Positions 17,671-38,118 of a DNA stretch of 64,000 nt are shown in pieces (the stretch's first letter is position 1; every line of letters starts with the position of its first letter). Location: positions 2,046,001 to 2,110,000 of the forward strand of contig NZ_CP042172.1 in assembly GCF_005937985.2 (NCBI RefSeq), read 5' to 3'. Origin of the DNA: Arthrobacter sp. KBS0702. Lineage in GTDB: Bacteria > Actinomycetota > Actinomycetes > Actinomycetales > Micrococcaceae. Both the position numbers and the translations under genes were made by a program. A model generated the notes under the pieces. It was given only the letters and a program-made list of their open reading frames with translations, did not search any database and was not told the origin of the DNA.

Positions 17671-19662
17671 TCAATCCGCTAGGACGGCCTCGTCAAGGAT
17701 CCCCGCAGAGTGGATGTCAACATCGTAGCCAGCCTCTCGAAGATCCTCGCGGAGCACGTTCACCATTGCCCGGTCGTGCTGGCGAATCGCCGTTCTGTCC
17801 CATATGGTTCCGCTCTTGACCAAGTCCGACATTAGTTGAAGTTTAGTGCTCTGCCTGACGATCTCTGTCTTGTTCGCCTTGTAGGGGGGCAGGTTGTTGC
17901 TGAATTTGGAGTTCGTGCTGACACTGACTAGCGCGAGGTTTCCGAACATGTGGAGCTCCTTATCATCAGGCGTCACCAGTTCCCAGCCGTCATCGTCCCG
18001 GTTGGCGTACTGAGGGAAGAAGTGCTCTACGGAGTTCCGGTACACGAAAGTGAAGTTGGGGTCGGCCGGGGAGTCGGGACCGGCACCCTCCGTTGCCAAG
18101 AGGTAGTCAAGGTAGGTGAACACGATCCGCTCAATATTGAACCCGGCTGGCTGGGACCCGACAAAGAATGCTTGCTGCACCTTCTGGCGCGCGTGTGTCC
18201 TTAAGACGGCGAGGATCGATTGAGCCGCGTCCTGCTGCGTCAGGCCGATGATCGGTTCGCGTAGGATTCTCGTGATCCAGTGCATTGTCCGCGGAGAGGT
18301 GTAGGTGACTCGGAACATTGATTGAAGCAGCAGCACGTCGCGTGTTGCATCGTCAACGGGGGTGTCTTCCCACTCCGCTCTGTCGGGCGAGAAGGCGTTG
18401 GGAAAGCGCGCATTGACCGTATTGCGATTGCCTTGTTGAGAGGCTGACTCTCCCCGGGTCAGGCGTTTGAGAGACCAGGCGCCGTCGTCAGCGTTGGTTG
18501 CCGTGAACTCACGCTTGAGAACGTAATTGTCCAGCACGAACTTGCATCGCAGGAGAACCTCGATGAACCGCTTGACCCGGTCCGACCGCTGAGTCTCGGA
18601 GAGAGGTTTGAAATCGATTTCGAAAAGCTTGATCAACTTGCCGTCGTCGAGGTGGCCATCGACGTCGTCCTCGCCGTCCTTCTCCCTCAGAACTTTTAGC
18701 GCGTGAAGGAGCAGAGTTGGGAACTTGATGGGGGACTCGAACCTGCGACTTTCGGAGTCTTCCTCGGTTGGCCCCGCAGGGGTTCTGGCGTAGAGCCGGA
18801 GCGCTTCGCCCAAGCTCACGCCCGCACTCCGGCTCACGCCGCTCCGGGCGTGAGCCTGCGGCCTTATGAGGCTCAGGTCATCGAATGTCGAAACCGTAAG
18901 GCCGTCCCATCTCGGACTAAATATTTTGTCTCGCAAGTCGGTGTTGTTTGGAGTCAGCGCCATTTGAATGTACGAGTTCATCTCAGCGCAGGCGTCCCAG
19001 ACCCACGCGAGGCAAGCCCTATCGTCCTCAACCTCCCCCGCCTCGTTGCGCAGGTAACTCATTAGTCGCGCCTTGATAATGTCGACCTGCTCCAGCTGCT
19101 GGCCACGGGTGTTCATGATCTCGAAGTACTTATTCAAGTCGGTCTGTACAGGGAGAATCGCTCGCACGAGCTGCACGTTATCCTCCAGGAATCTCTGAAA
19201 AGTGTCTCGTTCTTCGGGGGTCCTGAACTTCGCCATGCGCGACTTGATCACCTGAAAGCCCAGGTGGATGCCGGCACCTTCGTCATCGTCCGAAGTCGTG
19301 AGGCGCGTCAGCGCTTGGGTCGCATTCCTCCGAGATTGATACGTGAGTTGCGCCTTCGGAGCGACTCCGAGGTGCGTCAATAGCATCAACAGGGTTGTCA
19401 GTCGTTGCTGACCATCAACGACCTCAAAGGTCACGCCATCCCTCCTGAGGTCGGGAGGCTTCCGGGCCACTATCAAATTACCTAAGAAGTAATCGTCAGC
19501 TTCCGCCTGTGCTGCCGCCCACACGTCATCAATGAGTTGCTCGATCTGCTCAACGCCCCAGGCATAGTTGCGCTGATAGATTGGAATTTCGTAGTGCGTT
19601 TTCACCTCATCAAAGAGCTCGCCGACCGTAAACAAATTCGCTGCTAATTTTTCGATCATCAA
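17671..19662 (-). CDS. DUF262 + HNH-like (DUF1524) protein, GmrSD type
   Basis: A 663-residue protein. The N-terminal DUF262 (ParB/sulfiredoxin-like nucleotide-binding) domain is clear from IPIYQRNYAW near residue 28 and VVDGQQRLTTLL near residue 75. Near residue 545 the segments SVEHFFPQ and HMFGNLALVS, with NSKFSNN, match the HNH-nuclease pattern of DUF1524. This is the GmrSD layout, known as a type IV enzyme that cuts modified phage DNA. Its ATG overlaps the stop of the upstream DUF262 gene by four bases, so the two are translated together. The substrate is unknown, and both the gene and its partner are lower in GC than the flanks. Confidence 0.85.
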   Translation of the reverse strand: MMIEKLAANLFTVGELFDEVKTHYEIPIYQRNYAWGVEQIEQLIDDVWAAAQAEADDYFLGNLIVARKPPDLRRDGVTFEVVDGQQRLTTLLMLLTHLGVAPKAQLTYQSRRNATQALTRLTTSDDDEGAGIHLGFQVIKSRMAKFRTPEERDTFQRFLEDNVQLVRAILPVQTDLNKYFEIMNTRGQQLEQVDIIKARLMSYLRNEAGEVEDDRACLAWVWDACAEMNSYIQMALTPNNTDLRDKIFSPRWDGLTVSTFDDLSLIRPQAHARSGVSRSAGVSLGEALRLYARTPAGPTEEDSESRRFESPIKFPTLLLHALKVLREKDGEDDVDGHLDDGKLIKLFEIDFKPLSETQRSDRVKRFIEVLLRCKFVLDNYVLKREFTATNADDGAWSLKRLTRGESASQQGNRNTVNARFPNAFSPDRAEWEDTPVDDATRDVLLLQSMFRVTYTSPRTMHWITRILREPIIGLTQQDAAQSILAVLRTHARQKVQQAFFVGSQPAGFNIERIVFTYLDYLLATEGAGPDSPADPNFTFVYRNSVEHFFPQYANRDDDGWELVTPDDKELHMFGNLALVSVSTNSKFSNNLPPYKANKTEIVRQSTKLQLMSDLVKSGTIWDRTAIRQHDRAMVNVLREDLREAGYDVDIHSAGILDEAVLAD

Positions 19663-21050
19663 CCGGCCAACCTATCCAAGAGCCGCATCAAATCCTGCTC
19701 ATGCTTTGGGATGTCGTCTCGTCCTTTGACCTCGACGCGTAACCGCCGAAGTTCGGTCGAGGTCTCAGCACTCCGAAGAAGAACGAAAGCCGATGCACTG
19801 TGGTCTATGGAACTGGCGTGGTTGTTCACGGTGACTAGCTGAAGCCGCTGGTAGCTCGTCCGGAGGGTGTAGGCCCACGTGAACAACCGGCTCTTTGCCT
19901 CGCGAATCTCGACCTCGCCGAATTTGTTTGTGTAGTAGAGCAGTGCTGCCAGATAAAGCTCGGAAACGTATCGATACCTTGCTCGCGATGGGAGCTCGCG
20001 AAAGTCGTCGTCCGTGGACGCGAAGTGGCCCCAAGACTTTTCCTTGCCCTCGTTCCCGTCCTGTTCATCGAAGCCCTCTTCGCGGAGTCTTCGTAATTCT
20101 GCCAACATGAACGTAACCATCTCGAAGAAGGACCGTCCTGCGACCACGGGTGCGTCGATTTGGAAGCGCGTTCGGTTGGTCGTCCGGTTCGCTTCATCGG
20201 AGTGCTCAACCCAGGCCGCGAGCATAGGCACGGCGGTTTGAGCAGCGAGGTGGTAGCGCGCGGCGGGCGTGCTTGCCAATTTGGGTGTCAAGCCCTTGAA
20301 GGAGTCGATGTATCGCGTTGAGAAAGTTGGTGCCGAAAGTCCACGCGTCCACCGCTTGATACGCCAAAGGTACGTTGAGAAGAGCCGGTCGAGCTCTGCA
20401 TCGGGGACATTCTGCCAACCCTCGACGAGGGCTTCTCGCATAGCGTCAGACTCGTCGCTCATCTCGCGCAGATGGTATGCCTTCAGCAAATCGTGTGGCA
20501 GCAGGGACTTGCCCCGATAGTTCTGTGAGTCGAAAACCCGAAAAGCCTCGTCCGCGTCATCCGTCTCCACTCGAATGATTTCGCAGGTGCTACGGATGAA
20601 GTCAGCAAAAGCTTCAGCTGGCTCCTCCATGTGTCTGACACGACGGGCCAACTCTGTACGGACCCGAACTACGCGAGCGGCTGGGTCCTCCTGCTCGATC
20701 GGCAGGACCTCGATATGGCCTTCGCTCGCCTCATCAAGTAGATCCAGCAATATTGTCAGGGTCAAGAGACGCTGCTGGCCGTCGACAACGTGGATCTGAA
20801 CATTCTCGTTGTCCCTATGGAGGATAACGGCGCCGAGCACATACGAAGGCCATTGAACCTGGTCCGCATGTGGCAAAGCGTTCGGCGCAGCGTTTTCTGC
20901 CTTGAATGCCTCACGGATGTCGTCGAAAAGTTGGAGCGCAGTGGCAGGTTCCCAGCTGTAGGGCCTTTGATAGGACGGGATCGTCAGTCCTTCATCTAAT
21001 AGCTCACCAACGGTGACAACTCTGACGCCCTTCTCGCGATCAATAGCCAC
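19659..21050 (-). CDS. DUF262 protein without nuclease domain
   Basis: A 463-residue protein. The DUF262 signatures IPSYQRPYSW near residue 24 and VVDGQQRLLTL lie in the N-terminal half. The C-terminal part is helical, ending in LMRLLDRLAG, and I see no HNH motif there. The GTG start at 21050 follows GAGGGGGG, a strong site; the frame extends to 21077 without one. It is the first gene of a coupled pair with the 663-residue nuclease protein and is probably its regulatory or sensing partner. Confidence 0.82.
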   Translation of the reverse strand: MAIDREKGVRVVTVGELLDEGLTIPSYQRPYSWEPATALQLFDDIREAFKAENAAPNALPHADQVQWPSYVLGAVILHRDNENVQIHVVDGQQRLLTLTILLDLLDEASEGHIEVLPIEQEDPAARVVRVRTELARRVRHMEEPAEAFADFIRSTCEIIRVETDDADEAFRVFDSQNYRGKSLLPHDLLKAYHLREMSDESDAMREALVEGWQNVPDAELDRLFSTYLWRIKRWTRGLSAPTFSTRYIDSFKGLTPKLASTPAARYHLAAQTAVPMLAAWVEHSDEANRTTNRTRFQIDAPVVAGRSFFEMVTFMLAELRRLREEGFDEQDGNEGKEKSWGHFASTDDDFRELPSRARYRYVSELYLAALLYYTNKFGEVEIREAKSRLFTWAYTLRTSYQRLQLVTVNNHASSIDHSASAFVLLRSAETSTELRRLRVEVKGRDDIPKHEQDLMRLLDRLAG

Positions 21051-21189
21051 ACGACACCCCCCTCGCAGATTGGGCAACCAACCTGCAGCCCGTCATTGAG
21101 ACTCTAGAGGACTAGCTGCCCTACACAGTGTTTCGGGTATCGATCTACAGCGCGTGTCCTATGAGAGCTCTGCTTCGCGGCACGGGTAG

Positions 21190-24030: not shown

Positions 24031-24306
24031 CTAATCAAGTAAATCGTGCTCGCCTACCTCGCCGCGCCTCTGCGCTACTTTCATGGCGACCCGCACTGCC
24101 TTTACTCGGATGTAATTGAACGTCCTGACGACTTCTCCCGGCGACGCGTTGCTTGTCTCCAGGGACCACCGGACCAGGCAGTCGTACTCCTCGCGCTCCT
24201 CAAGGTCCTCAGGCAGGGAGTTTTCGGGCACGGACGCCATGTAAGCGTCGGCAAGGCTGTGGCAGTGCTCCCCGGTGTAGTAGTTTTTTACGAAGCCGGC
24301 CTCCAT
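24031..24306 (-). CDS. Small acidic protein, unusual or missing start
   Basis: A 91-residue acidic protein ending GEVGEHDLLD, with a helical pattern (ADAYMASVPENSLPEDLEER). No family recognised. The first in-frame ATG is at 24306, but the best ribosome-binding site, AGGAG, is about 45 bases further upstream, at the end of an open frame that continues with IKGNAYSAELAAAMEAGF. The spacing puts an ATA codon where a start would be, so either ATA is the start or the real start has been lost. It lies downstream of the large repeat protein gene. Confidence 0.45.
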   Translation of the reverse strand: MEAGFVKNYYTGEHCHSLADAYMASVPENSLPEDLEEREEYDCLVRWSLETSNASPGEVVRTFNYIRVKAVRVAMKVAQRRGEVGEHDLLD

Positions 24307-24558: not shown

Positions 24559-27500
24559 TCAGTCGTCAGAAGCGTCCACCTCGGGAGGGAAGACTGCTAA
24601 ATGCCAGCGCAGAAGTCCGGCGTCCCTGCATTCCCGGCCGATCCGCAGCCCGTCCAGGAGTTTCTTAGCAGCGGATTCCCTGGGCACGTCAGTGACGTGC
24701 CAGTTCGGGTTTTCGCCAGTTGGGGCTTCCCAGCCGGCGGAAACCAGGAAGTCCGAATTGAGCGGCCAGACATCAGCAGAAAGAAATTCCTCAGAAACAA
24801 GTTCCAAGGACAAACCGGATTCGCGCGGAGTGGCCTGCGCATATGGTGCACAGTCCTCCCCCGTTCCGTACCCGTATTCGATGCTGAGGAAGTCGTCATC
24901 TTTGAGCCACAGCAGCTCGTCCGTCAGCGACTCCACAGCATCGGCCCACAGAATCACTTGTCCGGATCCTTCCGTGGCCAAGCTCTGCCATTCGCCTTGG
25001 CCGTTGGAGGGCGAACTCGTCCTAGCCTCCCCCGACGGTAGTTTCTTAGACCACCTAAGTTGCGCGGGATTCGTCACGCCGCGGCATTCCCGCAAGCCGG
25101 CGAGGAGAGTTGACGCGATGTCCCCTAGCGGGACGGACTCCTTGATCCACACGTCATTCGCATCTCGGACGGCTGCCCAGCCCAGTTCGAGCATCCGTCT
25201 GACATCCTGGGGCCAGTCCTCGGTCCCGACTACAAGGGCTGAGGGGAATGAGCAATCGGCCCCCTCTGCCGTGATTGTTGCCGTCGCAAACAGCGGAATA
25301 TCCAGGTCCTCGCCTTCTTCCACGACCCGGATCTCGAATGAGGCGCCCTCCGGAGTCTCGGACACGGTTTCGGAGACCTCGTGTTGGACTCGGCGCCACT
25401 CGTTCTCAAAGTCGCCTGCTGGGTCCTCCCCGGCCAGGTCCGTGCTCCCCGCCACCAACCTCAGTCCATTACTCAAGACCCCAAACTCGGCGTGCATGCT
25501 GAGCAGCGATGGTCGTTCCACTCCCCGCACGACCTGCTGTTTCACCCAGTCGTCGTATGCGAATTCAGTCTCAGGAGAATGATCTAGCTCCGATGCCGTT
25601 TCTGAAAAGTCGAGCGCAGCATGGATGAAGTCCTGTCCCTGCCAGTTCCGTGCCTGCAGGATCGGGGAAAGGCCTACCGCAGTTAGGGCCCCATTCCACG
25701 AGCCTCCGCCGAGCAGAGCGGACACAGTTTCAGCTGGGACCGGCCAGTCCAGGTAGTCGGATTCATCAAGAAGTTCTCGGAACCGGGCCCGGCCCAGATC
25801 GTACTCCCGCGCGTAGAGCTGCCTACCCGGTGCACGATTCAGCTGCCTCAACGCCCCCAGAACGAAACACACCCCACTTCGCCGCGCTGAGGCAGGCGCA
25901 CCGGACAAGAAGCGTTCGAGGTCCTCCACGACGCGTACTTCCGCCGGTGAAAGCGGTTCAGCCAGGTCTGCGCTGAGCCCCTCGAGCATGCCGTAAACCG
26001 CGAAGACGCCATAGTCGAGATAGGGGGAATGGCAGCCCATCGGGTAGTCGACGTTAAGGATTACTTCGGGGCAGATTTCCCTGTAGAGGTCGGCAGCCAG
26101 GCTGTGCAGCCAGTGGAACCTGTGCTTAAGAACCATGGACCTGCGCACTGATTCCGGCTCTTGGCCACCATAAACAAGGCCGCGATCCACGTCGTCCTGG
26201 ATGAGTTGACGCAGCGAACGGATTTCCGCCGCGATGGCGTCCGCACGGCTTTGTTCGTGCTCGTCCGTTACGGCGTCCCTAAGACGGTTAAGGAACCGCT
26301 TTGGGGACTCAGCAACTTCATACAGGGTGGCTATCCGCTCCCCCTGGGCGTAAGCGTCCACAATCATTTCCCAGCTTTGGCTCCAACCGGTCGAAGTTAC
26401 CTCAGGTACGTTCGTCGACGGCAGATTCGAGTCCTCCTGGAGCAGGCGCAGGGAGGCCTCGACGTCGGTCCCGGCGTTCACGACTCCCCGCATGACCCCG
26501 CTGGCCCAATTGGCCAAGGACGCTTCTGCCTTTTCACCGCCCGGAGCCGGGAGCCGGCCGAACCGCGACAAGAACTCCGTGTAGTCGATAAGCCGTTGTT
26601 CGTGGCGGACTTCGCGCGCCGACTTCAAGGTGTCCGCATACTCAAGCACACGCGAGATCTCGTTAGAGATTGACGCTCCAGCCGTGCGGAGCTTGCGGTG
26701 CTTGACCAACCACGCATAGACCGTTGATGCGGATCCTGGGATGTGGCCTGCTGCCTTCAGCGCCGCCATGACTCTTACGGACTCCGCGTTCTCCCGGTCA
26801 AGGTTGGCCTGCCTCTTCTTGGGGGGCTCAACGGTCTTAGCGGTCGCCGCTATTCTGCTGCACTCGGCTATGAGTTCAGTGATTTTTTCATTGATTTCCG
26901 CACCGCCGGCTGGCCGGGAACCGTCGAGACGCCGCTTGACCCAAAAGGCAAGGTTTTTTTCGTCCTTCGGCGCCAACTTCGCGAACCCGGGCATGCGTCC
27001 GTTAGCTTTGACGAATTCACTCAACTCCTCCAAGCGCGAATCACGTTTGTGATCTGTGTGGGCCTTAAGTCGGTCCGCCAGCGCCAGCACTTCCAGGGTT
27101 TCCGGCGCCATTTCGGCGCCCGCATCGCGAAGGCGACGCGCATTTACGATCCAGCCGTGTGTCTGGCTGTCTTCGGTGCTTGAAGGGACGTGGTCGGCGC
27201 ACTCAAGCACCTTTCGTACTCTCTCCCTTGCCCCGATCTCGTTGAATTCTGCGCGCGATGGGTACTTGTCGTAGAGATCGAGGATGCTCTGGCGGCGCTC
27301 GGCGTACTCGCTGGGCTCGTACGCGCGGGTGCTTTCGCGAGCGTGGTTACGCATCCAAGCCGCAATCGTCCGCTCTTTCTCCTCATCCAGACTGAGCGCA
27401 CCGGTGTCGGCGAAGCTGGCCCGAGGAATGTGCCCGTGTTGGGCGCACCATTCCTGGGCCTCCAGCAGCATTGCCTCAGGATCAGCGTTCCTCCTGGTCG

Positions 27501-28116
27501 CCAGGGCGCCGGGAACTGTGCTAAGCAATTTGATGTCATCCTGCGGCATGGTCCCATCTTTGAACGACATGAGCTTGTTGATGAGCCACAGGGCGAGCCC
27601 GCGCTCTTCTTCCCGCGTGCTCAGTGGCATCCGCCCGTGCTCGGCGTGGAATGCCTCGAGGTCCGCAACCCATTCTGCGAGTGGGCGGACTCTTCGCGTT
27701 GAACTAGCCGGCACCAAGGGCTCAAGCAAGTCCGAGCGTTCGGCGGAAAGTTCTCCCTTATTGCGTGCGATAACCTGAAAATTCAGCCATGCAGCGAGAC
27801 TGCGTTCGGATGGATTGACGGCCCCGTAAAGCGGGCGCCGTCCGTTTGAGCGAATGAATTCTGCGAGCTCCGTAATGCGATCTGCATACGTCTGCCGCGG
27901 AGTAAGCGCGTCCCCAAGATCCTCGAGCAGTCTCAGACGATCCTCGGCCAGCTTGCCGGCGTTCCTCAGCGTCTGCTGCGAAATAACCCACCGTCCCAAG
28001 GCGGCTTCGACCGCGTCCTTGGACTCTGCCCTTGGGCGGCGGCCGGTTTGCTCAATGAACGCCTTTAGATCACCGTAGCGGGCCATGAACCGGTGTTGCT
28101 GGTCTTCGAGTGACAT
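24559..28116 (-). CDS. Giant helicase-associated-repeat protein with chaperone-like tail
   Basis: A 1185-residue protein. Residues about 15-562 hold roughly eight copies of one unit of the form LxxFxxxxGRxP...E..LaxWl...(r).G.L, for example DLKAFIEQTGRRP (17-29), ELAEFIRSNGRRP (83-95), DLEAFHAEHGRMP (152-164), ELSEFVKANGRMP (364-376) and DYTEFLSRFGRLP (511-523). This is the helicase-associated repeat pattern, but no helicase motif is present. The middle is helical. The last 300 residues contain two related segments, LELGWAAVRDANDVW and VSAGWEAPTGENPNWHV, each followed by LLxGLRxxR...LRW, resembling TY-Chap-type domains. The ATG at 28116 has AGGA upstream. It may recognise nucleic acid or protein in defence; function unknown. 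Confidence 0.7.
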   Translation of the reverse strand: MSLEDQQHRFMARYGDLKAFIEQTGRRPRAESKDAVEAALGRWVISQQTLRNAGKLAEDRLRLLEDLGDALTPRQTYADRITELAEFIRSNGRRPLYGAVNPSERSLAAWLNFQVIARNKGELSAERSDLLEPLVPASSTRRVRPLAEWVADLEAFHAEHGRMPLSTREEERGLALWLINKLMSFKDGTMPQDDIKLLSTVPGALATRRNADPEAMLLEAQEWCAQHGHIPRASFADTGALSLDEEKERTIAAWMRNHARESTRAYEPSEYAERRQSILDLYDKYPSRAEFNEIGARERVRKVLECADHVPSSTEDSQTHGWIVNARRLRDAGAEMAPETLEVLALADRLKAHTDHKRDSRLEELSEFVKANGRMPGFAKLAPKDEKNLAFWVKRRLDGSRPAGGAEINEKITELIAECSRIAATAKTVEPPKKRQANLDRENAESVRVMAALKAAGHIPGSASTVYAWLVKHRKLRTAGASISNEISRVLEYADTLKSAREVRHEQRLIDYTEFLSRFGRLPAPGGEKAEASLANWASGVMRGVVNAGTDVEASLRLLQEDSNLPSTNVPEVTSTGWSQSWEMIVDAYAQGERIATLYEVAESPKRFLNRLRDAVTDEHEQSRADAIAAEIRSLRQLIQDDVDRGLVYGGQEPESVRRSMVLKHRFHWLHSLAADLYREICPEVILNVDYPMGCHSPYLDYGVFAVYGMLEGLSADLAEPLSPAEVRVVEDLERFLSGAPASARRSGVCFVLGALRQLNRAPGRQLYAREYDLGRARFRELLDESDYLDWPVPAETVSALLGGGSWNGALTAVGLSPILQARNWQGQDFIHAALDFSETASELDHSPETEFAYDDWVKQQVVRGVERPSLLSMHAEFGVLSNGLRLVAGSTDLAGEDPAGDFENEWRRVQHEVSETVSETPEGASFEIRVVEEGEDLDIPLFATATITAEGADCSFPSALVVGTEDWPQDVRRMLELGWAAVRDANDVWIKESVPLGDIASTLLAGLRECRGVTNPAQLRWSKKLPSGEARTSSPSNGQGEWQSLATEGSGQVILWADAVESLTDELLWLKDDDFLSIEYGYGTGEDCAPYAQATPRESGLSLELVSEEFLSADVWPLNSDFLVSAGWEAPTGENPNWHVTDVPRESAAKKLLDGLRIGRECRDAGLLRWHLAVFPPEVDASDD

Positions 28117-28282: not shown

Positions 28283-28948
28283 CTACCCCGGAATCTGGAT
28301 CCGTGCCGCTTCCTGGAGCAGCGGATCGGCAATCATCACCGTTACCGGCCCGACCGCGACGTCGAAGGCGACGAAGCCCCGCGACTTGTCCCCCGGCATA
28401 ACATCCCCTGCAGGCAGCTGGTTGTCGGCGAACATCTGGAGGTCGGCCTTCCGCCCATTGGCGTCCTTGGCCGAGAAGTACAACGGATTGGACGTGGTCT
28501 TCCCCGATTCTGTTTCCCACAGCACCTCCAGCAGCAGGAAACTGCCGCTCTTGGGTGCGGTCGCGAACGCCGTCGTCGTGACAGCGTCAGTGCGGACCGC
28601 AGAAACCACCGTGATCCGGGCGACGTTGCCGTTGCGCATCTTGACACTGAAGGGAACGCCGACGGCGGGAGCGGCCGGAGCCGCCGTCGCGGGCGGCGCT
28701 GCTGGCGCGGCGGCCGGCACAGCAGCCGCCGAGGCAGAAGCCGGCTCGGAAGCAGCCGCGGCAGCGGACGAAGGCGGCCCTGCGGGAGCGGCTTCGCTCA
28801 CCTGCTTGGAGCCGCCGGAGCACGACCCCAGCGCGATGCCCAGTACCAGGACACCGGCCGGGATGAGGAACCGCTTCTTCTTGAAGAACGGACGGGCCTC
28901 GGTGGAGGCGGTTTCGGCGTCGGGCGCCGGAGGTAACTGCTGGGTCAT
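28283..28948 (-). CDS. DUF4352 membrane-anchored or lipoprotein
   Basis: A 221-residue protein. A charged N-terminus (FFKKKRF) precedes a hydrophobic segment ending ALGSC, which could be a membrane anchor or a lipobox, then an Ala/Pro/Ser-rich spacer and a C-terminal beta-rich domain with FLLLEVLWET and VAFDVAVG, the DUF4352 immunoglobulin-like pattern. It is exported and anchored at the membrane. The ATG at 28948 was chosen because the frame upstream is untypical. It follows the 210-residue coiled-coil gene on the same strand, 44 bases away, so the two are probably co-transcribed. Confidence 0.75.
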   Translation of the reverse strand: MTQQLPPAPDAETASTEARPFFKKKRFLIPAGVLVLGIALGSCSGGSKQVSEAAPAGPPSSAAAAASEPASASAAAVPAAAPAAPPATAAPAAPAVGVPFSVKMRNGNVARITVVSAVRTDAVTTTAFATAPKSGSFLLLEVLWETESGKTTSNPLYFSAKDANGRKADLQMFADNQLPAGDVMPGDKSRGFVAFDVAVGPVTVMIADPLLQEAARIQIPG

Positions 28949-28992
28949 GAGGGTGATGCCTTTCTCGGATGATGGTGGGTTGCTGCTGGCTG

Positions 28993-29625
28993 TTACTGCT
29001 TTTCCCATTTGCCGCAGCGGCTGGACTTGAAGTCCTGGCCGGCAGACAAAGCCACGGTGGGCCGGCCACCGCCAGGAATGTCGTTCTCGATGATGTTGCT
29101 GCCGTTGCTGCCAGTGGCGTAGATGCCCCAGTAGCAGGTGGAGCCGACGTCGCCGGCCGCGCGGTAGGTTCCCGGTTCGATGTCCTTACCGACAGTCCAG
29201 GTGCCGTCGCCGATCGCGTTGGCTGCCTTGGTCTTTTCGGCGCCGGTCACAGCCTCTTCGCGCTTCTTCACCGCGGCTTCAGCAGTCTTGTTGGCCGCTT
29301 CCGCCGCGCCGACTGCCGATTCGCGGGCGCCCACCTTGGACTCGCGCGTAGCCATGCCGCCCTCCAGTGAGTCGTACTTTGTCTTCAGCGACGCGAAGTC
29401 GGATTTGGCTGAGTCGCGCTCCGACTCAACAGATGCCTTCTCCCCGGCCAGCGTTGCGTAGGCGTCGCTTGCCTTCGGATCCGGAAGGGTCGAGCCGAAG
29501 GCGGCAGCCCCGGCCAGGATCGCAACCGCAGCGACGGCTGCCAGGATGCGCTTTGTGCGGCGCGGTTTTCGCGGTTCGGCGGCAGGCGCGTCACCGCCGG
29601 CCGGGCTGGTCTCGGTGTTCAACAT
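28993..29625 (-). CDS. Membrane-anchored coiled-coil surface protein
   Basis: A 210-residue protein. A basic N-terminus (PRKPRRTKR) is followed by a membrane segment (about residues 27-47), a long coiled coil (about 60-125, repeats of Ala/Lys/Glu) and a C-terminal domain with GDGTWTVGKDIEPGTYRAAG and TCYWGIYATGSNG. The last part is a domain common in secreted actinobacterial proteins and has no assigned function. GAGGACGAG lies just before the ATG. It heads an operon with the DUF4352 protein and probably acts at the envelope. Confidence 0.75.
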   Translation of the reverse strand: MLNTETSPAGGDAPAAEPRKPRRTKRILAAVAAVAILAGAAAFGSTLPDPKASDAYATLAGEKASVESERDSAKSDFASLKTKYDSLEGGMATRESKVGARESAVGAAEAANKTAEAAVKKREEAVTGAEKTKAANAIGDGTWTVGKDIEPGTYRAAGDVGSTCYWGIYATGSNGSNIIENDIPGGGRPTVALSAGQDFKSSRCGKWEKQ

Positions 29626-29862
29626 GTCTCGTCCTCTACTCATGGATGGGCTGAACGGCGGCGGGATACCGATCCCCCAATGCGTGGTTCCCCGCCGCCG
29701 CCGCAGCTCCGCGAGATCCCGCCGTAGCTGCAAGATCGAAGCTAGGCCCATCGAAGCCGATTCCACGCGCCAAAAACTGATAACCCCCCTTATCAGAAAA
29801 TCAGCCCTGCACACCCGAGCCTCCGCTAGGCTGGGCGAACGCCATCAGAAGGGGGGACCGCC

Positions 29863-31908
29863 GTGGAGGCAGCATGCACACCGCTGAACCTGACGCTGTC
29901 CGACGTCGCGGCCCTGGCCCGCGTCCAGCGCCCGGTCGTTTCCATGTGGCGCAAGCGCAGCGCCGGGTCGGCTCAGCCCTTCCCGGCACCGACAGCACTG
30001 GAGGCCGGCCGCGAGTTGTTCGACGCCGACCAGGTTGGCGCGTGGCTCGAGGCCACCGGTCGCGGCAACAACGCCGAAGCGCGGAACGACGCCGCCGCCT
30101 TTGCGGCACCGGCCACTCGTGACCAGCGGGAGATCTTCAACGCCCTGACCTCGTTATTGGCGCTAAAAGTACTGACCGGCCGGCAACTGGCACCGCTCGG
30201 CACCGACCAGCTGCTGGACGTCGGGGACGAATGCGATCCGGACGACCACTTGCTCTACTCCGAACTTGAGGCCCTTAGGGACGAGCTACCTGCGTTGGCT
30301 AGCTACGCCGACCGATTGACTGACAGTTCATACAGCGCGCCCGCAGCCTTCGAAGGACTCCTGGCCGATCGCTTCCGGACCGGCCTTCGCGAACTTGCAG
30401 ACACAGCCCTCACGGCATCGGCCCTGTCATTGGTCGCGGCGGCCGCCACGGCGCTGGCCGCCACCCTTGACGGCCGTCCGGTCTTTGTCGATCCGACGGC
30501 CGGCGGCGGCGACCTCCTGGTCGCCGTCGTCCGCGAACACGCTGATGCCGCTCCGGTGTCCGTCCTGGTCACGGACGACGACGGCGCTGCCGCGCGCCTG
30601 CTGCGGCGGCGGCTCGCGGTGCACGGTGCCGACACGGGCCGGGTCAACACCTGGAGCGAGGACGGTCTCGCAATCTCCGGGCCGGCCGTTCACGTGGCCC
30701 AGTACCCCTCCCCCGGCAACCCAACCGCCACAGCCGAGGAAATCCTGGCGGGGATCGAAGACGTGGTCCTCCAGATGGACGACGCCCAGCGCGCGGTGCT
30801 GATCGCCCCTGCCCGGGTGCTGTCGAGTCCCCTGACCGGACCAGCCGGCAACCTGCGGGGCGACCTGTTGCGCTCGGGCCGGGTCCGGGCCATCATCCAG
30901 CTGCCGCCGGGTCTGCTCAAGGCCAAGCCTCGGGAGCTCCAGGCCCTCTGGATCCTCGGGCCGTCCTTCGCTGAAGTCCCGATCGTCGACCGCTGGACCA
31001 TGGCGGCGGACCTCAGCACGCGGCAGCTCACGCAGGACGTCAGCCAGGACCTGGTCAGCGACGTCGTGGCCTCGATGGGCGACCGCTGGACTCTTCGTGC
31101 GCATTCCTTCCGCTTCGCGCGCCTCATTCCCACCCGCAGCCTGCTGGCCAGCAAGGGACCCCTCGTACCGGCGGCCGCGCCAGCGGCGACGCGGGCCAGG
31201 GCCGGCGCCGAGTCAGCGCTCAGGATTGACGAACTGCTCAGGTCAGGGAACTTCGGGTCTACGGAGGCCGGGCTTATGGTCGAGCCGGTGGGGGCTCCGG
31301 CGGCAACAGGCACCGCTAAGATCGAGGACCTGCTCCGCGCGGGCACCCTCCGGTACATCAAGGGCAACCGGATCCCGGAGGCAACCGCGACCACACCAGA
31401 CGGCACCAGGCTCCTCGGACCGGCGGACCTCCTCAACCCGCACACTGCGCCGCGGCGCTACATCGACCTTCTCGACTTTGCCGCCGGCAATCCTTCCGGC
31501 CGGCTCACCGAACCGGGCGACGTCGTCTTCTGCACCAGCCCCCGGCCCGCCGCCCTGGTGGACATGCAAGGCGGATCCGCCGTCGTGTTCCCCGCCCGCG
31601 TGCTCCGGATCGACGCCGGCGACCCCGGCGGCCTGCTGCCCGACGTCGTCGCCGCGGACATCAACGCGCTCCCCGGGGCGGACAAATCCTGGCGCCAGTG
31701 GCGCCTGCGCCGCGTGCCGGACGCCCAACGTAACCAGCTCGACGCATCCCTTGCCCGGCTGCAACACGGGCAGCATCTGGCGCGTGAACGCCTCAAACGG
31801 CTGGAGGAACTCGCTACCCTGATTACGGACGGCGTAGCGGGCGGAAGCCTCACCCTGACAGACCCCAGCACTAAGCTCGCCGAACCACAGACCAAAGGAA
31901 TCCAGTAA
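29863..31908 (+). CDS. HTH + degenerate N6-adenine methylase-like protein
   Basis: A 681-residue protein starting at GTG after GGGGGGA. The N-terminus has a helix-turn-helix (LTLSDVAALARVQRPVVSMWR). The middle has a methylase-type motif I, FVDPTAGGGDLL, near residue 207, but where NPPF/Y should follow the chain reads HVAQYPSPGNP (about 276), so the catalytic motif is missing. The C-terminal half has a helical and beta pattern resembling a target-recognition domain. It overlaps hsdM (TAATG) and so is the first gene of the type I operon. It may be a sensing or regulatory subunit that lost methylation; actinobacterial type I loci often carry such a gene. Confidence 0.72.
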   Translation: MEAACTPLNLTLSDVAALARVQRPVVSMWRKRSAGSAQPFPAPTALEAGRELFDADQVGAWLEATGRGNNAEARNDAAAFAAPATRDQREIFNALTSLLALKVLTGRQLAPLGTDQLLDVGDECDPDDHLLYSELEALRDELPALASYADRLTDSSYSAPAAFEGLLADRFRTGLRELADTALTASALSLVAAAATALAATLDGRPVFVDPTAGGGDLLVAVVREHADAAPVSVLVTDDDGAAARLLRRRLAVHGADTGRVNTWSEDGLAISGPAVHVAQYPSPGNPTATAEEILAGIEDVVLQMDDAQRAVLIAPARVLSSPLTGPAGNLRGDLLRSGRVRAIIQLPPGLLKAKPRELQALWILGPSFAEVPIVDRWTMAADLSTRQLTQDVSQDLVSDVVASMGDRWTLRAHSFRFARLIPTRSLLASKGPLVPAAAPAATRARAGAESALRIDELLRSGNFGSTEAGLMVEPVGAPAATGTAKIEDLLRAGTLRYIKGNRIPEATATTPDGTRLLGPADLLNPHTAPRRYIDLLDFAAGNPSGRLTEPGDVVFCTSPRPAALVDMQGGSAVVFPARVLRIDAGDPGGLLPDVVAADINALPGADKSWRQWRLRRVPDAQRNQLDASLARLQHGQHLARERLKRLEELATLITDGVAGGSLTLTDPSTKLAEPQTKGIQ

Positions 31909-33551
31909 TGCCCGCCGCAAAAAGAAGTACAGCGCTGAAGGTGGACCTCGCCCCGTCCACTATGAAGGAACTCAAGGATACGCTCTGGAAGGCCGCAGAC
32001 AAGCTGCGCGGATCCATGGATGCTTCCCAGTACAAGGACGTGATCCTCGGCTTGGTGTTCCTCAAGTACGTCTCGGACGCCTTCGAGGAGCGCCGGGGGC
32101 AGATCCAGGCCGAGCTGGAAGCCGACGGGCTTAACGAGGAACAGATCGCCCAGTTGATCGACGACGTGGACGAGTACACCGGCCGCGGCGTGTTCTGGGT
32201 GTCGGAACGGGCACGCTGGACCTACTTGGCCGAGAACGCCAAGGGCCTGCCCGCGATGGACGGCGCCGAGCCCAAGCAGATCGGTCAGCTCATCGATGAA
32301 GCCATGGACCTCATCATGGCGGACAACAAGAGCCTCGCCGCGACGCTCCCGCGCATCTACAACCGGGACAACGTGGACCAACGGCGCCTCGGCGAGCTGC
32401 TGGACCTGTTCAACTCGGCCCGCTTCACCGGCCAGGGCGCAAGCAAGGCCCGCGACCTGCTCGGCGAGGTGTACGAGTACTTCCTGGAGAAGTTTGCCAA
32501 GGCCGAGGGCAAGCGCGGCGGCGAGTTCTACACCCCCGCCGGCGTCGTCCGTGTCCTCGTGGAGGTTCTGGAGCCGCATAGGGGCCGGGTCTACGACCCC
32601 TGCTGCGGCTCCGGCGGCATGTTTGTTCAGGCCGAGAAGTTCCTGGCGGCGCACAACATGGAGGGCTCGGACATCTCCGTCTACGGCCAGGAGCTCAACG
32701 AGCGCACCTGGCGGATGGCCAAGATGAACCTCGCCATCCACGGCCTCAACGCCAACCTCGCCTCCCGCTGGGGTGACACCTTCGCCCGCGACCAGCACCC
32801 CGAGCTCATCGGCAACAACGGCGCGGACTTCATCATGGCCAACCCGCCGTTCAACATCAAAGACTGGGCCCGCTCCGAGTCCGACCCCCGCTGGAAGTAC
32901 GGCGTGCCCCCGGCCGGCAACGCCAACTACGCATGGATCCAGCACATCATCTCCAAGCTGGCTCCCGGCGGCAGCGCCGGCGTGGTCATGGCCAACGGCT
33001 CCATGTCCTCCAACTCCGGCGGCGAGGGCGAGATCCGAGCCCAGCTCGTGGAGGCGGACCTGGTCTCCTGCATGGTCGCCCTGCCCACGCAGCTTTTCAG
33101 GAGCACTCCTATCCCCGTGTGTACATGGTTCTTTGCCAAGGACAAGACCGCCGGCAAAAGCGGCTCCGTTGACCGCACCGGGCAGGTGCTCTTCATCGAC
33201 GCCCGGAACCTCGGCTACATGGTGGACCGTGCCGAACGCGCCCTCGCGGACGAGGACATCGCCAAGATCGCCAACACCTACCACGCCTGGCGCGGCACCG
33301 CTTCGGCAGTTGAGTCGGGGCTCGCCTACGACGACGAAGCCGGCTTCTGCTACTCGGCCAGCCTCGCAGAGGTCAAAGCCGCGGACTATGCGCTGACGCC
33401 GGGACGGTTCGTCGGGGCAGCCGATGTGGACGACGACGGCGAGCCTATCGACGAGAAGATAGCGAGGCTCTCAAAGGAGCTGTTTGCGCACTTTGAGGAG
33501 TCTGCGCGGCTAGCCGCAGTTGTGCGCGAACAGTTGGGGCGAGTCCTGTGA
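31908..33551 (+). CDS. hsdM: Type I restriction-modification methyltransferase (HsdM)
   Basis: A 547-residue M subunit. The N-terminal helical domain (MKELKDTLWKAADKLRGSMD) is followed by the methylase core with FYTPAGVV, motif I VYDPCCGSGGMF and the catalytic MANPPFNIKDW. It transfers a methyl group from SAM to adenine at the sequence set by the S subunit, protecting the host DNA. The ATG overlaps the stop of the upstream gene, and the stop overlaps the GTG of hsdS, so all are translated together. All catalytic motifs are intact. Confidence 0.95.
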   Translation: MPAAKRSTALKVDLAPSTMKELKDTLWKAADKLRGSMDASQYKDVILGLVFLKYVSDAFEERRGQIQAELEADGLNEEQIAQLIDDVDEYTGRGVFWVSERARWTYLAENAKGLPAMDGAEPKQIGQLIDEAMDLIMADNKSLAATLPRIYNRDNVDQRRLGELLDLFNSARFTGQGASKARDLLGEVYEYFLEKFAKAEGKRGGEFYTPAGVVRVLVEVLEPHRGRVYDPCCGSGGMFVQAEKFLAAHNMEGSDISVYGQELNERTWRMAKMNLAIHGLNANLASRWGDTFARDQHPELIGNNGADFIMANPPFNIKDWARSESDPRWKYGVPPAGNANYAWIQHIISKLAPGGSAGVVMANGSMSSNSGGEGEIRAQLVEADLVSCMVALPTQLFRSTPIPVCTWFFAKDKTAGKSGSVDRTGQVLFIDARNLGYMVDRAERALADEDIAKIANTYHAWRGTASAVESGLAYDDEAGFCYSASLAEVKAADYALTPGRFVGAADVDDDGEPIDEKIARLSKELFAHFEESARLAAVVREQLGRVL

Positions 33552-34753
33552 GCAAGGGAGTCGTGCCGCTGCGAGAAATTGCCGAAATCGAGGTCGGCTA
33601 CGCATTCAAGAGTAGCGAGTTCTCCTCGGACGCTAGTGGAGTGAAACTATTGCGGGGAGACAACATTGCTCCTGGATCGGTTCGTTGGGACCGCACCGAA
33701 CGATGGCCGGAGTCGGCGCCAGTTGCCAGCCGTTACAGGCTGCAAGCTGGAGATATCGTGCTAGCTATGGATAGGCCCTGGGTGGGAGGCGGTCTGAAGT
33801 TCGCTCGGGTTCGGGCCGTAGATCTGCCTGCATACCTAGTCCAGCGAGTTGCTCGAATACGCGCGTCGGAAGGTACCAATCAAGATTATCTTTCCGCTGT
33901 CATTGGAGGTCAGGCCTTCACTGATTACATCCTTTCAGTGCAGACCGGGACGTCAATTCCGCATATCAGCTCCCGCCAGATAGGCGCCTTCGAAGTCCAA
34001 TTGCACGGACTCGCAGATCAATCTGCGATAGCCGGCGTACTCGGACCGCTCAATGACAAAATTGCCGTCAATACTAAAGTCGCCAAGACGGCCATGATGC
34101 TTGCCGAAAAGTTGTACATTCGAGAGTGTGCTTCGTCGCAATACACCATGCAGCCGCTGGGCCGTTTTGCGACGACCGTGTTGGGGGGAACGCCTAGCCG
34201 GGACAACCTAGAGTTCTGGAGTGAGGGCACGGTGCCTTGGCTAAACTCGGGCAAAGCCAACGAAGACCGTATTATCCAGCCTTCCGAATACATCACCGAA
34301 GCGGCACTACAACGCAGCGCGGCAAAATTGATGCCAGAAGGTGCAACGGTTATTGCGATTACGGGTGCCACCCTCGGGCAGGTCGCTCGCCTGGAAATCG
34401 AAGCCAGCGGAAACCAGTCACTTGTGGGCGTCTGGACGGAAGAAAGGGCGCTCAACGACTGGCTTCACTTTGCAATACGCGAGCAGATTCCAGAACTGCT
34501 GAAAAAGGCGACCGGTGCTGCGCAACAGCACGTCAATAAGCGAGACGTTGACGCTCTCGAAGTACCTTTTGTCGTTTCTCAGGGGCTCGCCAGGTTCTCC
34601 GACATCGCCAGCCCGCTGTTGCGGGCGGCAGCCGCCGCCGACGTCCAAAACCTCAGCCTCACAGCCACCCGGGACGCCCTCCTCCCGCAACTGATGTCCG
34701 GCAAGCTCCGGGTCATGGATGCCGAAAAGGTCCTGGAGAACGCGGGAGTATGA
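33548..34753 (+). CDS. hsdS: Type I restriction specificity subunit (HsdS)
   Basis: A 401-residue S subunit with two target-recognition halves: the first from about residue 5 (PLREIAEIEVGYAFKSSEF) and the second from about 200 (PLGRFATTVLGGTPSRDN), separated by conserved helical spacers such as LNDKIAVN. These halves choose the bipartite DNA site. The GTG at 33548 overlaps the stop of hsdM. The central part (about 33.6-34.6 kb) is clearly lower in GC than hsdM and hsdR, as expected for domains exchanged between strains. The recognised sequence cannot be predicted. Confidence 0.92.
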   Translation: MSKGVVPLREIAEIEVGYAFKSSEFSSDASGVKLLRGDNIAPGSVRWDRTERWPESAPVASRYRLQAGDIVLAMDRPWVGGGLKFARVRAVDLPAYLVQRVARIRASEGTNQDYLSAVIGGQAFTDYILSVQTGTSIPHISSRQIGAFEVQLHGLADQSAIAGVLGPLNDKIAVNTKVAKTAMMLAEKLYIRECASSQYTMQPLGRFATTVLGGTPSRDNLEFWSEGTVPWLNSGKANEDRIIQPSEYITEAALQRSAAKLMPEGATVIAITGATLGQVARLEIEASGNQSLVGVWTEERALNDWLHFAIREQIPELLKKATGAAQQHVNKRDVDALEVPFVVSQGLARFSDIASPLLRAAAAADVQNLSLTATRDALLPQLMSGKLRVMDAEKVLENAGV

Positions 34754-34849
34754 GGTCGGACGAACTGATTTGAGCCAGCGGCTCTGATTCCAAAGCAGGG
34801 CTTGCATAAAAATCTGAGCATGACATCCGGTCCATCAGGGGGAACCAAC

Positions 34850-37800
34850 GTGACAGCAACACCCGCCGTAGCCTTTTCCGAAGCCGACTGGGAAGGCATG
34901 GCCCTGGAACTCCTGGCCGAACCACTCGGCTGGCGACCCGGTGCCGGGCAAGACATCGCGCCTGGCACCGGTGCGCGGGATTCCTGGGACGAACTGCTGA
35001 TCCGCCCCCGGCTACTCACAGCCCTGCAACGCTTCAACCCGACGGTTCCCGCCCAGTACCTGCAGCAGGCCCTCGCAGAGATCGCCTCGCCCAAGTCCAA
35101 CGACGCCATCACCGAGAACCACCGCATCCACAACTACCTCGTGGACGGCTACCGGCTCAGCTACATTGACTCGGACGGCAACGAGGCCAACCCCACCATC
35201 CACCTGCTCAGCTCCGATCCGGACCAGAACGACTGGCTCGCGGTCAACCAGGTCACCCTGGTGCAGGGCGACTACAAACGCCGCTTCGACGTCGTGCTCT
35301 ACTGCAACGGCATGCCGGTGAGCATCATCGAACTGAAGAAGGCCGGCAGCGCCACGGCCGACGTTGCCTCCGCGCACGCCCAGCTGCAAACCTACCTGCG
35401 CGAGTTCCCCATGGCGTTCCGCTTCTGCGTGTTCACGCTCGCCTCGGACGGGATCCAGGCCAAGTACGGCACGCCGTTCACTCCCCTGAACCACTTCTCA
35501 CCGTGGAACGTCGACGACGACGGCGTGCCCGTCGCGCCTGGATACATAGAAGACGGCGAAGCCGTAACCGCGCTGGAGACAGCGCTGCAGGGACTCTTTA
35601 ACCAGGAGCGGTTCCTCCAGCTGGTCCGCAACTTCACAGCATTCGATGAAGGATCGGACGGGCTGTCCAAGAGGATCGCGAAGCCGCACCAGTACTTTGC
35701 CGTGACCAAAGCGGTGGGCAGCACCGTCCAAGCGGTGGAGAGTAACGGCAAGGCCGGCGTCGTCTGGCACACCCAGGGCTCGGGCAAGTCCATGGAAATG
35801 GAGCTCTACGCCAACCTGGTGGCCCGGCATCCGAAGCTAAAGAACCCCACCGTTGTCGTCATCACCGACCGCAACGAACTCGACGGCCAGCTCTTCGAGG
35901 GCTTTAGCCGCAGCCTGCTGCTGGCCGAATCCCCCAAACAGATCCGAAAACGTTCCGAACTGCGGGACGAGCTGAGCAACCGCACCACTGGTGGCATCTA
36001 CTTCACCACGCTGCAGAAGTTCGGCCGGAGCAAGTCGGAGAAGGACGCCGGCGCCGAGCACCCGCTGCTGTCCGAGCGGCGCAACATCATCGTGGTGGTG
36101 GACGAGGCGCACCGCTCGCACTACGACGACCTGGACGGCTACGCCCGGCACCTCCGCGACGCTTTGCCGCACGCGACGTTGATTGCCTTCACCGGAACAC
36201 CGATCTCCTTCGACGACCGCAACACCCAAGACGTTTTCGGCGAATACATCGATATTTACGACCTCTCCCGGGCGGTGGAGGACGGCGCCACGGTACCGGT
36301 CTACTTCGAGCCGCGGCTGATCAAAATAGGGCTGGCGTCGGACGTCACGGAGGAGATCCTGGACCAGGCAGCCGACGAGGCCACCCTGGGGCTGGACGAA
36401 ACCGAGCGGGCGCGGATCGAGGCGAGTGTCGCCGTCGTGAACGCCGTGTACGGTGCGCCGCAGCGGATCGCGGCGCTGGCCGCTGACCTGGTGGTGCACT
36501 GGGAGAACCGCAGGGCCCGGATGGGGAAGTTCATCGAGGCGCCGGGCAAGGCGATGATCGTGGGCGGGACGCGGGAAATCTGCGCGAAGCTGTACACGGC
36601 CATCGTGGAGCTGCGGCCGGACTGGCACTCCGATGACCTGGCCAAGGGCAAGATCAAGGTGGTCTACTCCGGGACAGCGTCCGACGTTCCGCCGGTCTCC
36701 GATCACGTGCGCCGAGACTCTGCGAACGCTGCGGTGAAGGAACGGCTCAAGGATGTGGACGACGAGCTGGAGCTGGTGATCGTCAAAGACATGATGCTCA
36801 CCGGCTTCGACGCCCCGCCGCTGCACACCCTGTACCTGGACCGGCCGCTCAAGGGCGCGCTGCTGATGCAGACCCTGGCCCGCGTTAACCGCACTTTCCG
36901 GGGCAAGGAGGACGGTTTGCTGGTGGCGTACGCCCCGCTCGCGGAGAACCTGGCCAAGGCTTTGGGCGAGTATACGCAGTCCGACCAGGCGAACAAGCCG
37001 GTGGGCAAGAACATTGATGAAGCCGCTGTGGCTGCACGTGGGTTGGTGGAGACCCTGCGGGGGCTGCTTGCCGGCTATGACTGGAAGGCCGTCCTGATGA
37101 AGGGCGGTCCGAAGGCGTTTGTGTCCGCCGCGACCGGGGCGGCCAACTACCTGCGCAGCCCGGAGACGCCCGGAAACCAGCCTGCCGAAGGCGAGGAGAC
37201 GCTGGCCTCGAAGTACAGGCGGTTCTCCAGCCAGCTCTCCCGAGCATGGGCGCTCTGCTCGGGGTCCGAGACCTTGGCGGAACTGCGGCCGGAGATCCAG
37301 GTCTACGAAGAGACCCGGGTGTACATGGCCAAGTTCGACGCCGCAGACCGGCAGGCCAGCGGCGAGCCGGTGCCGGAGGAGATCCAGCGGCTGCTGGGCA
37401 ACCTGATCGCGTCCGCAACGTCTTCGGGCGAGGTCCTGGACATCTACGAGGCTGCCGGCATGCCGAAGCCCTCGCTGGATGACCTGACACCGGAGTTCAT
37501 CGCCAAGACCCAACAGGCACGGAACCCGCAGCTGGCCATCGAGGCGCTGCGGAAACTCATCTCGGATGAATCGGCGAAGACGACCCGCAACAACGTGATT
37601 CGGCAGCGCGCCTTCTCCGAACGGATCACGGAGCTGATGAAGAAGTACACCAACCAGCAGCTCACATCTGCCGAAGTTATCGCTGAGTTGGTGGAGCTCG
37701 CCCGGGAGGTCGCCGCCGAAGGCAACCGCGGCGCGCAGTTCACTCCCCCGCTGAACACAGACGAACTAGCCTTCTACGACGCTGTGGCCTCGAACGAATC

Positions 37801-38050
37801 GGCCGTCGAAGTCCAGGGCGAAGGTGTCCTGGCCGATATCGCGCGCGAGCTCGTGTCCGTGATGCGCCGGGACGTACGTACGGACTGGACAGTGCGCGAT
37901 GACGTCCGCGCCAAGCTGCGGTCCTCGATCAAGCGACTCCTGGTCCGTTTCGGCTACCCGCCGGACAAGCAGCCCGAAGCAATCAAGCTTGTCATGGAAC
38001 AGATGGAATCCATGGCACCGCGGTTTGCCGGCTCAAATCCGACGGTATGA
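34850..38050 (+). CDS. hsdR: Type I restriction endonuclease subunit (HsdR)
   Basis: A 1066-residue R subunit. The N-terminus holds a PD-(D/E)XK nuclease core (RRFDVVLY near 145 and IIELKKAG near 160). The motor follows with Walker A HTQGSGKS near 306 and the DEAH-box VVDEAHRSHYDD near 416, then the helicase motif MLTGFDAPPLHTLYLDRPL. The GTG at 34850 has AGGGGGA upstream; a TTG at 34802 opens the same frame but has no ribosome-binding site. It translocates and cuts unmethylated DNA. It belongs to the hsdM/hsdS operon, about 100 bases after hsdS. Confidence 0.93.
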   Translation: MTATPAVAFSEADWEGMALELLAEPLGWRPGAGQDIAPGTGARDSWDELLIRPRLLTALQRFNPTVPAQYLQQALAEIASPKSNDAITENHRIHNYLVDGYRLSYIDSDGNEANPTIHLLSSDPDQNDWLAVNQVTLVQGDYKRRFDVVLYCNGMPVSIIELKKAGSATADVASAHAQLQTYLREFPMAFRFCVFTLASDGIQAKYGTPFTPLNHFSPWNVDDDGVPVAPGYIEDGEAVTALETALQGLFNQERFLQLVRNFTAFDEGSDGLSKRIAKPHQYFAVTKAVGSTVQAVESNGKAGVVWHTQGSGKSMEMELYANLVARHPKLKNPTVVVITDRNELDGQLFEGFSRSLLLAESPKQIRKRSELRDELSNRTTGGIYFTTLQKFGRSKSEKDAGAEHPLLSERRNIIVVVDEAHRSHYDDLDGYARHLRDALPHATLIAFTGTPISFDDRNTQDVFGEYIDIYDLSRAVEDGATVPVYFEPRLIKIGLASDVTEEILDQAADEATLGLDETERARIEASVAVVNAVYGAPQRIAALAADLVVHWENRRARMGKFIEAPGKAMIVGGTREICAKLYTAIVELRPDWHSDDLAKGKIKVVYSGTASDVPPVSDHVRRDSANAAVKERLKDVDDELELVIVKDMMLTGFDAPPLHTLYLDRPLKGALLMQTLARVNRTFRGKEDGLLVAYAPLAENLAKALGEYTQSDQANKPVGKNIDEAAVAARGLVETLRGLLAGYDWKAVLMKGGPKAFVSAATGAANYLRSPETPGNQPAEGEETLASKYRRFSSQLSRAWALCSGSETLAELRPEIQVYEETRVYMAKFDAADRQASGEPVPEEIQRLLGNLIASATSSGEVLDIYEAAGMPKPSLDDLTPEFIAKTQQARNPQLAIEALRKLISDESAKTTRNNVIRQRAFSERITELMKKYTNQQLTSAEVIAELVELAREVAAEGNRGAQFTPPLNTDELAFYDAVASNESAVEVQGEGVLADIARELVSVMRRDVRTDWTVRDDVRAKLRSSIKRLLVRFGYPPDKQPEAIKLVMEQMESMAPRFAGSNPTV

Positions 38051-38118
38051 GACCAAGGCTCGATAGTGCCCGCGTAAACAGTGTCATTCTAATTTCTACG
38101 TCTTGAAAGTTGCCCTCA

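Follow-up and report, generated by a model that had tools for sequence, protein, structure and literature searches.

Helicase-associated (HA) domains, which form arrays in helicases such as P0013 (12 repeats), are held to bind nucleic acids. Iyer et al. 2022 (PMC9503650) predict that TY-Chap3 is a peptide-binding chaperone in ARG-centric systems. In our alignment, the TY-Chap3 proteins of these systems possess a helical N-terminal part, HNH-repeat-like units and TY-Chap3. In Deinococcus, the YbjN-like protein DR1245 is reported to be a partner of the SSB-like DdrB (PMC3575483), a precedent for a TY-like protein acting with a DNA-bound protein. The open-licence PMC literature yielded nothing useful on the HA domain, no experimental test of TY-Chap3 holding proteins in phage conflict, no tested function for HA arrays or TY-Chap3 in such a setting, and no prior description of the combination and setting reported here. 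As judged from sequence, both halves of the protein, hereafter TY-HA, belong to known families, and the joining of them is apparently new.

The TY-HA gene lies in the window, by which we mean the whole 64,000-nucleotide stretch of the Arthrobacter sp. KBS0702 genome (G000) that was analysed. An exact open reading frame on the minus strand encodes the 1185 residues that a sequence-only reading had assigned to 24559..28116; across the same interval, the plus strand contains 20 stops. The sequence AGGA is located a few bases 5′ of the ATG at 28116. Because an alternative GTG would add 16 residues, and the frame is likewise open upstream in three other genomes (G010, G223 and G210), this ATG is only the probable start. 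The gene and its parts are as follows.

24559..28116, minus strand: TY-HA gene, 1185 aa; probable ATG start at 28116, stop at 24559
27907..28095, minus strand: HA repeat 1 (residues 8-70); 52 bits versus a shuffle maximum of 10; PDB 2kta match, E 2.2e-5
27706..27894, minus strand: HA repeat 2 (75-137); shuffle test; hhalign to repeat 1, E 4e-14
27499..27687, minus strand: HA repeat 3 (144-206); 37 bits versus a shuffle maximum of 15
27253..27486, minus strand: HA repeat 4 (211-288); 16 bits versus a shuffle maximum of 11.6
27061..27231, minus strand: divergent HA-like repeat 5 (296-352); p = 0.003; matches repeat 7
26854..27051, minus strand: HA repeat 6 (356-421); 25 bits versus a shuffle maximum of 7
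26623..26805, minus strand: divergent HA-like repeat 7 (438-498); p = 0.003; matches repeat 5
26419..26610, minus strand: HA repeat 8 (503-566); 20 bits versus a shuffle maximum of 9
25837..26394, minus strand: helical middle (575-760); aligns to the N-terminal region of TY-Chap3 proteins from ARG systems
25441..25836, minus strand: two HNH_repeat-like helical units (about 761-892); HNH_repeat (PF18780) below the Pfam cut-off
25042..25401, minus strand: TY-Chap3 domain 1 (906-1025); PF22552, 38.4 bits, cut-off 27; alpha-beta elements in the model
24577..24951, minus strand: TY-Chap3 domain 2 (1056-1180); PF22552, 49.9 bits, cut-off 27

TY-HA thus comprises eight HA (PF03457) repeats, of which two are divergent and the other six clear, followed by a helical region and a pair of TY-Chap3 (PF22552) domains. 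The Pfam HA profile matched in three stretches (90.4 bits in total versus a gathering cut-off of 28.4, E 9.1e-26), which bears out the HA type proposed for the repeats from the sequence. Eight segments, with limits drawn by eye, were each scored against 1000 shuffles of themselves using an independent HA profile, which combined the 12 repeats of helicase P0013 with 35 repeats of short HA proteins (13 loci) and excluded the window. For repeats 1-4, 6 and 8, none of the 1000 shuffles reached the score of the segment; for repeats 5 and 7, the p value was 0.003. Since a scan of the whole protein with this profile assigned segments 5 and 7 just 1.4 and -1.5 bits, we regard these two as divergent. 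Profile-profile alignment by hhalign linked repeats 1, 2, 3, 6 and 8, linked repeat 4 weakly, and paired repeat 5 with repeat 7 (E 1.1e-11). The predicted full-length structure, of low confidence overall (mean pLDDT 50.9), showed consecutive three-helix units that keep step with the eight repeats; between units 5 and 6, the final helix of the one and the initial helix of the other form a single merged helix. A single solved structure matched TY-HA, namely 2kta at repeat 1; this entry, named as a putative helicase, holds one HA domain.

TY-HA shares its repeat family with the HA-repeat helicases but has no detected motor: Pfam reported no SF2 helicase motor at E up to 10, as the sequence-only reading had maintained. 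The lack of a helicase is not in itself unusual, as short HA proteins without one are numerous in the genus. Such stand-alone HA proteins occur in Arthrobacter and relatives, one of them on plasmid pPA-B-2242, and the array is collinear with two of them, from G057 and G102, over several repeats at about 28% identity. Unlike TY-HA, these two proteins (366 and 297 aa) lack the TY-Chap3 half. Membership of the family suggests that the array grips nucleic acid; the more specific idea that the repeats read DNA or RNA ends found no support and was dropped.

The paired chaperone-like tail was likewise borne out, with TY-Chap3 matching in two stretches (69.9 bits versus a gathering cut-off of 27, E 3.9e-19). 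When 11 long TY-Chap3 proteins from the genus were aligned, residues 583-1180 matched the resulting profile end to end (hhalign E 7e-36), and TY-Chap3 domain 1 aligned to the same template domain (E 3.6e-11). The middle is helical, as proposed, and not anonymous, being homologous to the ARG-system TY-Chap3 proteins. HNH_repeat (PF18780) attained 10.5 bits in TY-HA against a cut-off of 26. A model of residues 570-1185 built with 84 sequences (pLDDT 80.9) contained two alpha-beta domains, and TY-Chap3 domain 2 accounted for 11 of the 16 invariant columns in a 77-sequence alignment. Compared with the ARG-system proteins, TY-HA carries TY-Chap3 twice and has the array of eight HA repeats in addition. 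By extension of the prediction made by others (PMC9503650), its TY-Chap3 domains would hold peptides. Because both halves are homologous to separate known modules, TY-HA seems to have joined a stand-alone HA-array protein to a TY-Chap3 protein of the ARG-centric type.

Of 20 stretches taken around matches in the genus, 11 contained a long TY-Chap3 relative (L032-L041 and L043). According to our own gene calls, with families named by Pfam on L032 representatives, an NrtR-like regulator and a NERD-helicase were present in 11/11, ARPP-1 and ARG in 10/11 each, and a helicase-sigma family in 8/11; the eleventh genome (G064) has ARPP-1 by a separate genome search. These gene sets match the ARG-centric system as set out by Iyer et al. 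2022 (PMC9503650). The genome of the window differs: an ARG-centric system (ADP-ribosylglycohydrolase and ARPP-1) is not present beside TY-HA, and no ARG homologue was detected in G000 at E <= 1e-10. The genus search for ARPP-1 matched 33 of 206 genomes, G000 and G223 not among them; a separate search, which gave no match in any control genome, found none in G000. G223 contains only a distant ARG (32%), and G010 carries an ARG system away from TY-HA. Other TY-Chap3 proteins of the genus also lie away from ARPP-1, for example in G066 near 4.03 Mb and in G023. In G210, the type I restriction cassette beside TY-HA is flanked by the NERD-helicase gene and the PD-(D/E)XK gene of an ARG system. The six genes that this system shares with G010 show 70-82% identity to their G010 counterparts, and the ARPP-1 match of G210 is split in two pieces. 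This 47-kb locus lacks the long and short TY-Chap3-type genes that normally accompany such a system, as well as the helicase-sigma gene, and TY-HA, with its two matches, is the sole source of TY-Chap3 in the entire G210 genome. As two of the four carriers showed no ARG system, TY-HA does not require one in the same genome.

Full-length TY-HA is rare within the genus, occurring in 4 of 206 genomes at E <= 1e-30 (G000, G010, G223 and G210), and searching its own genome gave one match. Among 396 sampled genomes of the order (E <= 1e-20), the own genome provided the only full-length match, and two more matched the TY-Chap3 part. A protein search in which 8000 candidates were scored recovered at least 11 homologues (94-100% query cover, 67-92% identity) and one HA helicase; four database homologues have an added DUF6221 domain. 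The genome-contig search, which may leave out near genomes, confirmed no relative despite the known full-length homologues. Five of 72,556 plasmid records matched, in each case with the best place in the HA part alone. A PADLOC search for known anti-phage systems returned 0 families at E <= 0.001.

A phage origin of TY-HA was considered and rejected: 50,697 phage records contained no match, 41 stretches of viral contigs fitted a pattern with 0 confirmed as relatives, and PHROGs included no family for TY-Chap or HA.

Selection was assessed by NG86 dN/dS against the three orthologues, the values for G210 being rough because dS exceeds 1. Overall dN/dS was 0.18 (G010), 0.22 (G223) and 0.15 (G210); across the HA array it was 0.13-0.19 and across the middle 0.10-0.38. 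The two TY domains gave 0.21-0.26 (domain 1) and 0.08-0.09 (domain 2), and the short linker between them was far looser (0.23, 0.68 and 1.42). TY-HA is under purifying selection, with TY domain 2 the most constrained.

The neighbouring genes, which the sequence-only reading had called a defence block, include two GmrSD_N proteins, a type I restriction-modification (RM) system and an OLD-like ATPase, so that the description holds.

17671..21077, minus strand: two GmrSD_N (DUF262) proteins
24031..24306, minus strand: small gene of the variable slot, 91 aa (elsewhere 88-104 aa), assigned to cluster K3 by clustering
28283..29008, minus strand: putative lipoprotein (by eye) with a weak DUF4352 match; recurrent cassette partner
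28993..29814, minus strand: protein with an Rv1352/Rv1906c-type domain; recurrent partner
29863..31908, plus strand: 681-aa cassette protein with motif-I-like DPTAGGG and a weak HsdM-like match
31908..33551, plus strand: HsdM, type I methyltransferase
33548..34753, plus strand: HsdS, type I specificity subunit
34802..38050, plus strand: HsdR, type I restriction subunit
38110..39855, plus strand: OLD-like ATPase/TOPRIM protein

The 681-aa protein occurs in 45 of the 206 genomes of the genus; as it lacks an NPPY/F motif and matches HsdM only weakly (hhalign E 0.031), it was left unassigned. A distance of 1.7-4.2 kb separates TY-HA from the 681-aa gene in 4/4 genomes, and that gene is followed by hsdM, hsdS and hsdR, the HsdS of G210 having been confirmed separately; TY-HA thus adjoins a type I RM cassette in each case, rather than occurring in housekeeping contexts only. 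Past the cassette, G000, G010 and G223 carry ribonucleotide reductase genes, with the identity of those in the window confirmed. Of the 41 further genomes that have the 681-aa gene, 20 were surveyed on its upstream side. A lipoprotein-like cluster, K0, had at least one member in 18/20 loci and two members in 12/20; K2 was found in 8/20, an Hsp70-like protein in 2/20 and LigD in 2/20, and the remainder differed. Since its content varies among these loci, the slot is a cargo site. The GC3 of TY-HA (0.69, versus 0.88 for hsdM and 0.93 for nrdE) suits acquisition.

We tentatively favor, as the likeliest reading, that TY-HA is a DNA-anchored, protein-capturing accessory of the restriction island; ranked behind it are, in order, a passenger, a transcription regulator and a factor controlling restriction. 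The variable slot invites the view that TY-HA is exchangeable cargo serving another purpose, such as plasmid or element maintenance or DNA repair, with no role in defense. Its low GC3 and the presence of HA relatives on large plasmids typed as non-mobilizable are consistent with this, but the purifying selection, strongest at TY domain 2, and the relationship of the TY-Chap3 half to a predicted conflict system argue against it, and we judge it rather unlikely. Control of restriction, in which TY-HA would bind HsdRMS or its DNA and tune self-restriction (alleviation) or complex assembly, would account for the constant proximity of the 681aa-HsdM-HsdS-HsdR cassette. Nevertheless, this HsdM occurs in 43 of 206 genus genomes (E <= 1e-200), of which 4 also carry TY-HA and 39 lack it in full length, so that the RM enzyme does not need it; moreover, in the window TY-HA lies on the strand opposite to hsdMSR. 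We regard this role as distinctly improbable.

The relatives at ARG loci bring a further candidate, a transcription regulator akin to sigma-r4-like HTH proteins, whose HTH, HA and HNH-repeat parts would sit on promoter DNA and whose TY domains would serve either in sensing or in binding to RNA polymerase or an anti-factor. Among six short paralogues scanned, neighbors of the long ARG-system TY-Chap3 proteins, Sigma70_r4 exceeded the cut-off in five and HNH_repeat in four, and in 3/3 scanned members of the nearby helicase-sigma family, a helicase is joined to sigma-70 regions. Conversely, Pfam found no Sigma70_r4 match in TY-HA or in the three long relatives scanned (L032:8450-10186, P0014 and P0022), and eight HA repeats were judged unusual for a promoter regulator; this option, too, seems unlikely.

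Under the favored reading of a DNA-anchored accessory, TY-HA would be an optional cargo gene retained at the variable slot of the type I restriction island. The HA array, together with the HNH-repeat-like units, would grip DNA, and both TY domains might then bind peptides exposed on proteins that are DNA-associated, damaged or modified; candidate clients are proteins that arrive with a phage or are attacked by it. TY-HA could in this way act as a DNA-anchored holdase or adaptor, a protein-capturing layer on top of restriction, with which, to judge from its adjacency, it may co-operate. A bolder extension, which we offer as a long shot, is that TY-HA, like its relatives in ARG systems, shields the host transcription machinery or further DNA-bound proteins from phage-made ADP-ribosylation or other damage, with DNA-anchored TY domains trapping the altered protein while it is on the template. 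TY-HA would then, in G210, stand in as the sole TY-Chap3 protein for the ARG system and, elsewhere, form an independent protein-guarding layer in restriction islands.

Collectively, TY-HA unites HA arrays and TY-Chap3 in one protein beside restriction genes, and it makes it possible to ask with a single gene whether proteins are held by TY-Chap3 domains during phage conflict. One component is apparently common to a predicted ADP-ribose-removal system and a restriction island.

Within loci of the ARG-centric ADP-ribose conflict system (Iyer et al. 2022, PMC9503650), we identified a helicase-sigma protein whose gene lies within an ARG/ARPP-1/NrtR operon.
L032:11164-13707 (fetched genus stretch), (-) strand: helicase-sigma protein, 847 aa; Pfam domains ResIII, Helicase_C and sigma-70 regions
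The protein combines in one chain an SF2 helicase, recognised by ResIII and Helicase_C, and sigma-70 regions 1.2, 2 and 4; region 3 is matched below the cut-off only. Clustering placed family members in 8 of the 20 fetched stretches, and all three members scanned shared the helicase and sigma-70 make-up; the word 'sigma' is absent from the main text of PMC9503650. In genome G210 (L088/L089), an ARG system encloses the type I restriction-modification cassette together with TY-HA, the 1185-aa repeat protein, and the ARPP-1 match of this genome is split into two pieces.

The variable island slot upstream of the cassette, which holds TY-HA in the window, carries an Hsp70-like gene with three co-directional neighbours in G116, and G006 has the same set.
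L121:6381-8144, (+) strand: Hsp70-like protein, 588 aa, island slot of G116

Three further features were recorded in the window.
22944-23414: 156-aa protein, partial PADLOC model match
28283-29814: two overlapping lipoprotein/secreted-like genes
29863-31908: 681-aa cassette protein, upstream of hsdM, with a motif-I-like DPTAGGG
The first aligns with one half of a PADLOC model for type II methyl-directed restriction, at E 1.3e-8, and also has a DUF6998 match below the cut-off. Of 20 other loci examined, 18 had the cassette accompanied by at least one relative of the lipoprotein/secreted-like pair. The 681-aa protein, in which no NPPY/F motif was found, occurs in 45 of 206 genus genomes and is possibly a degenerate HsdM/HsdS-like partner.
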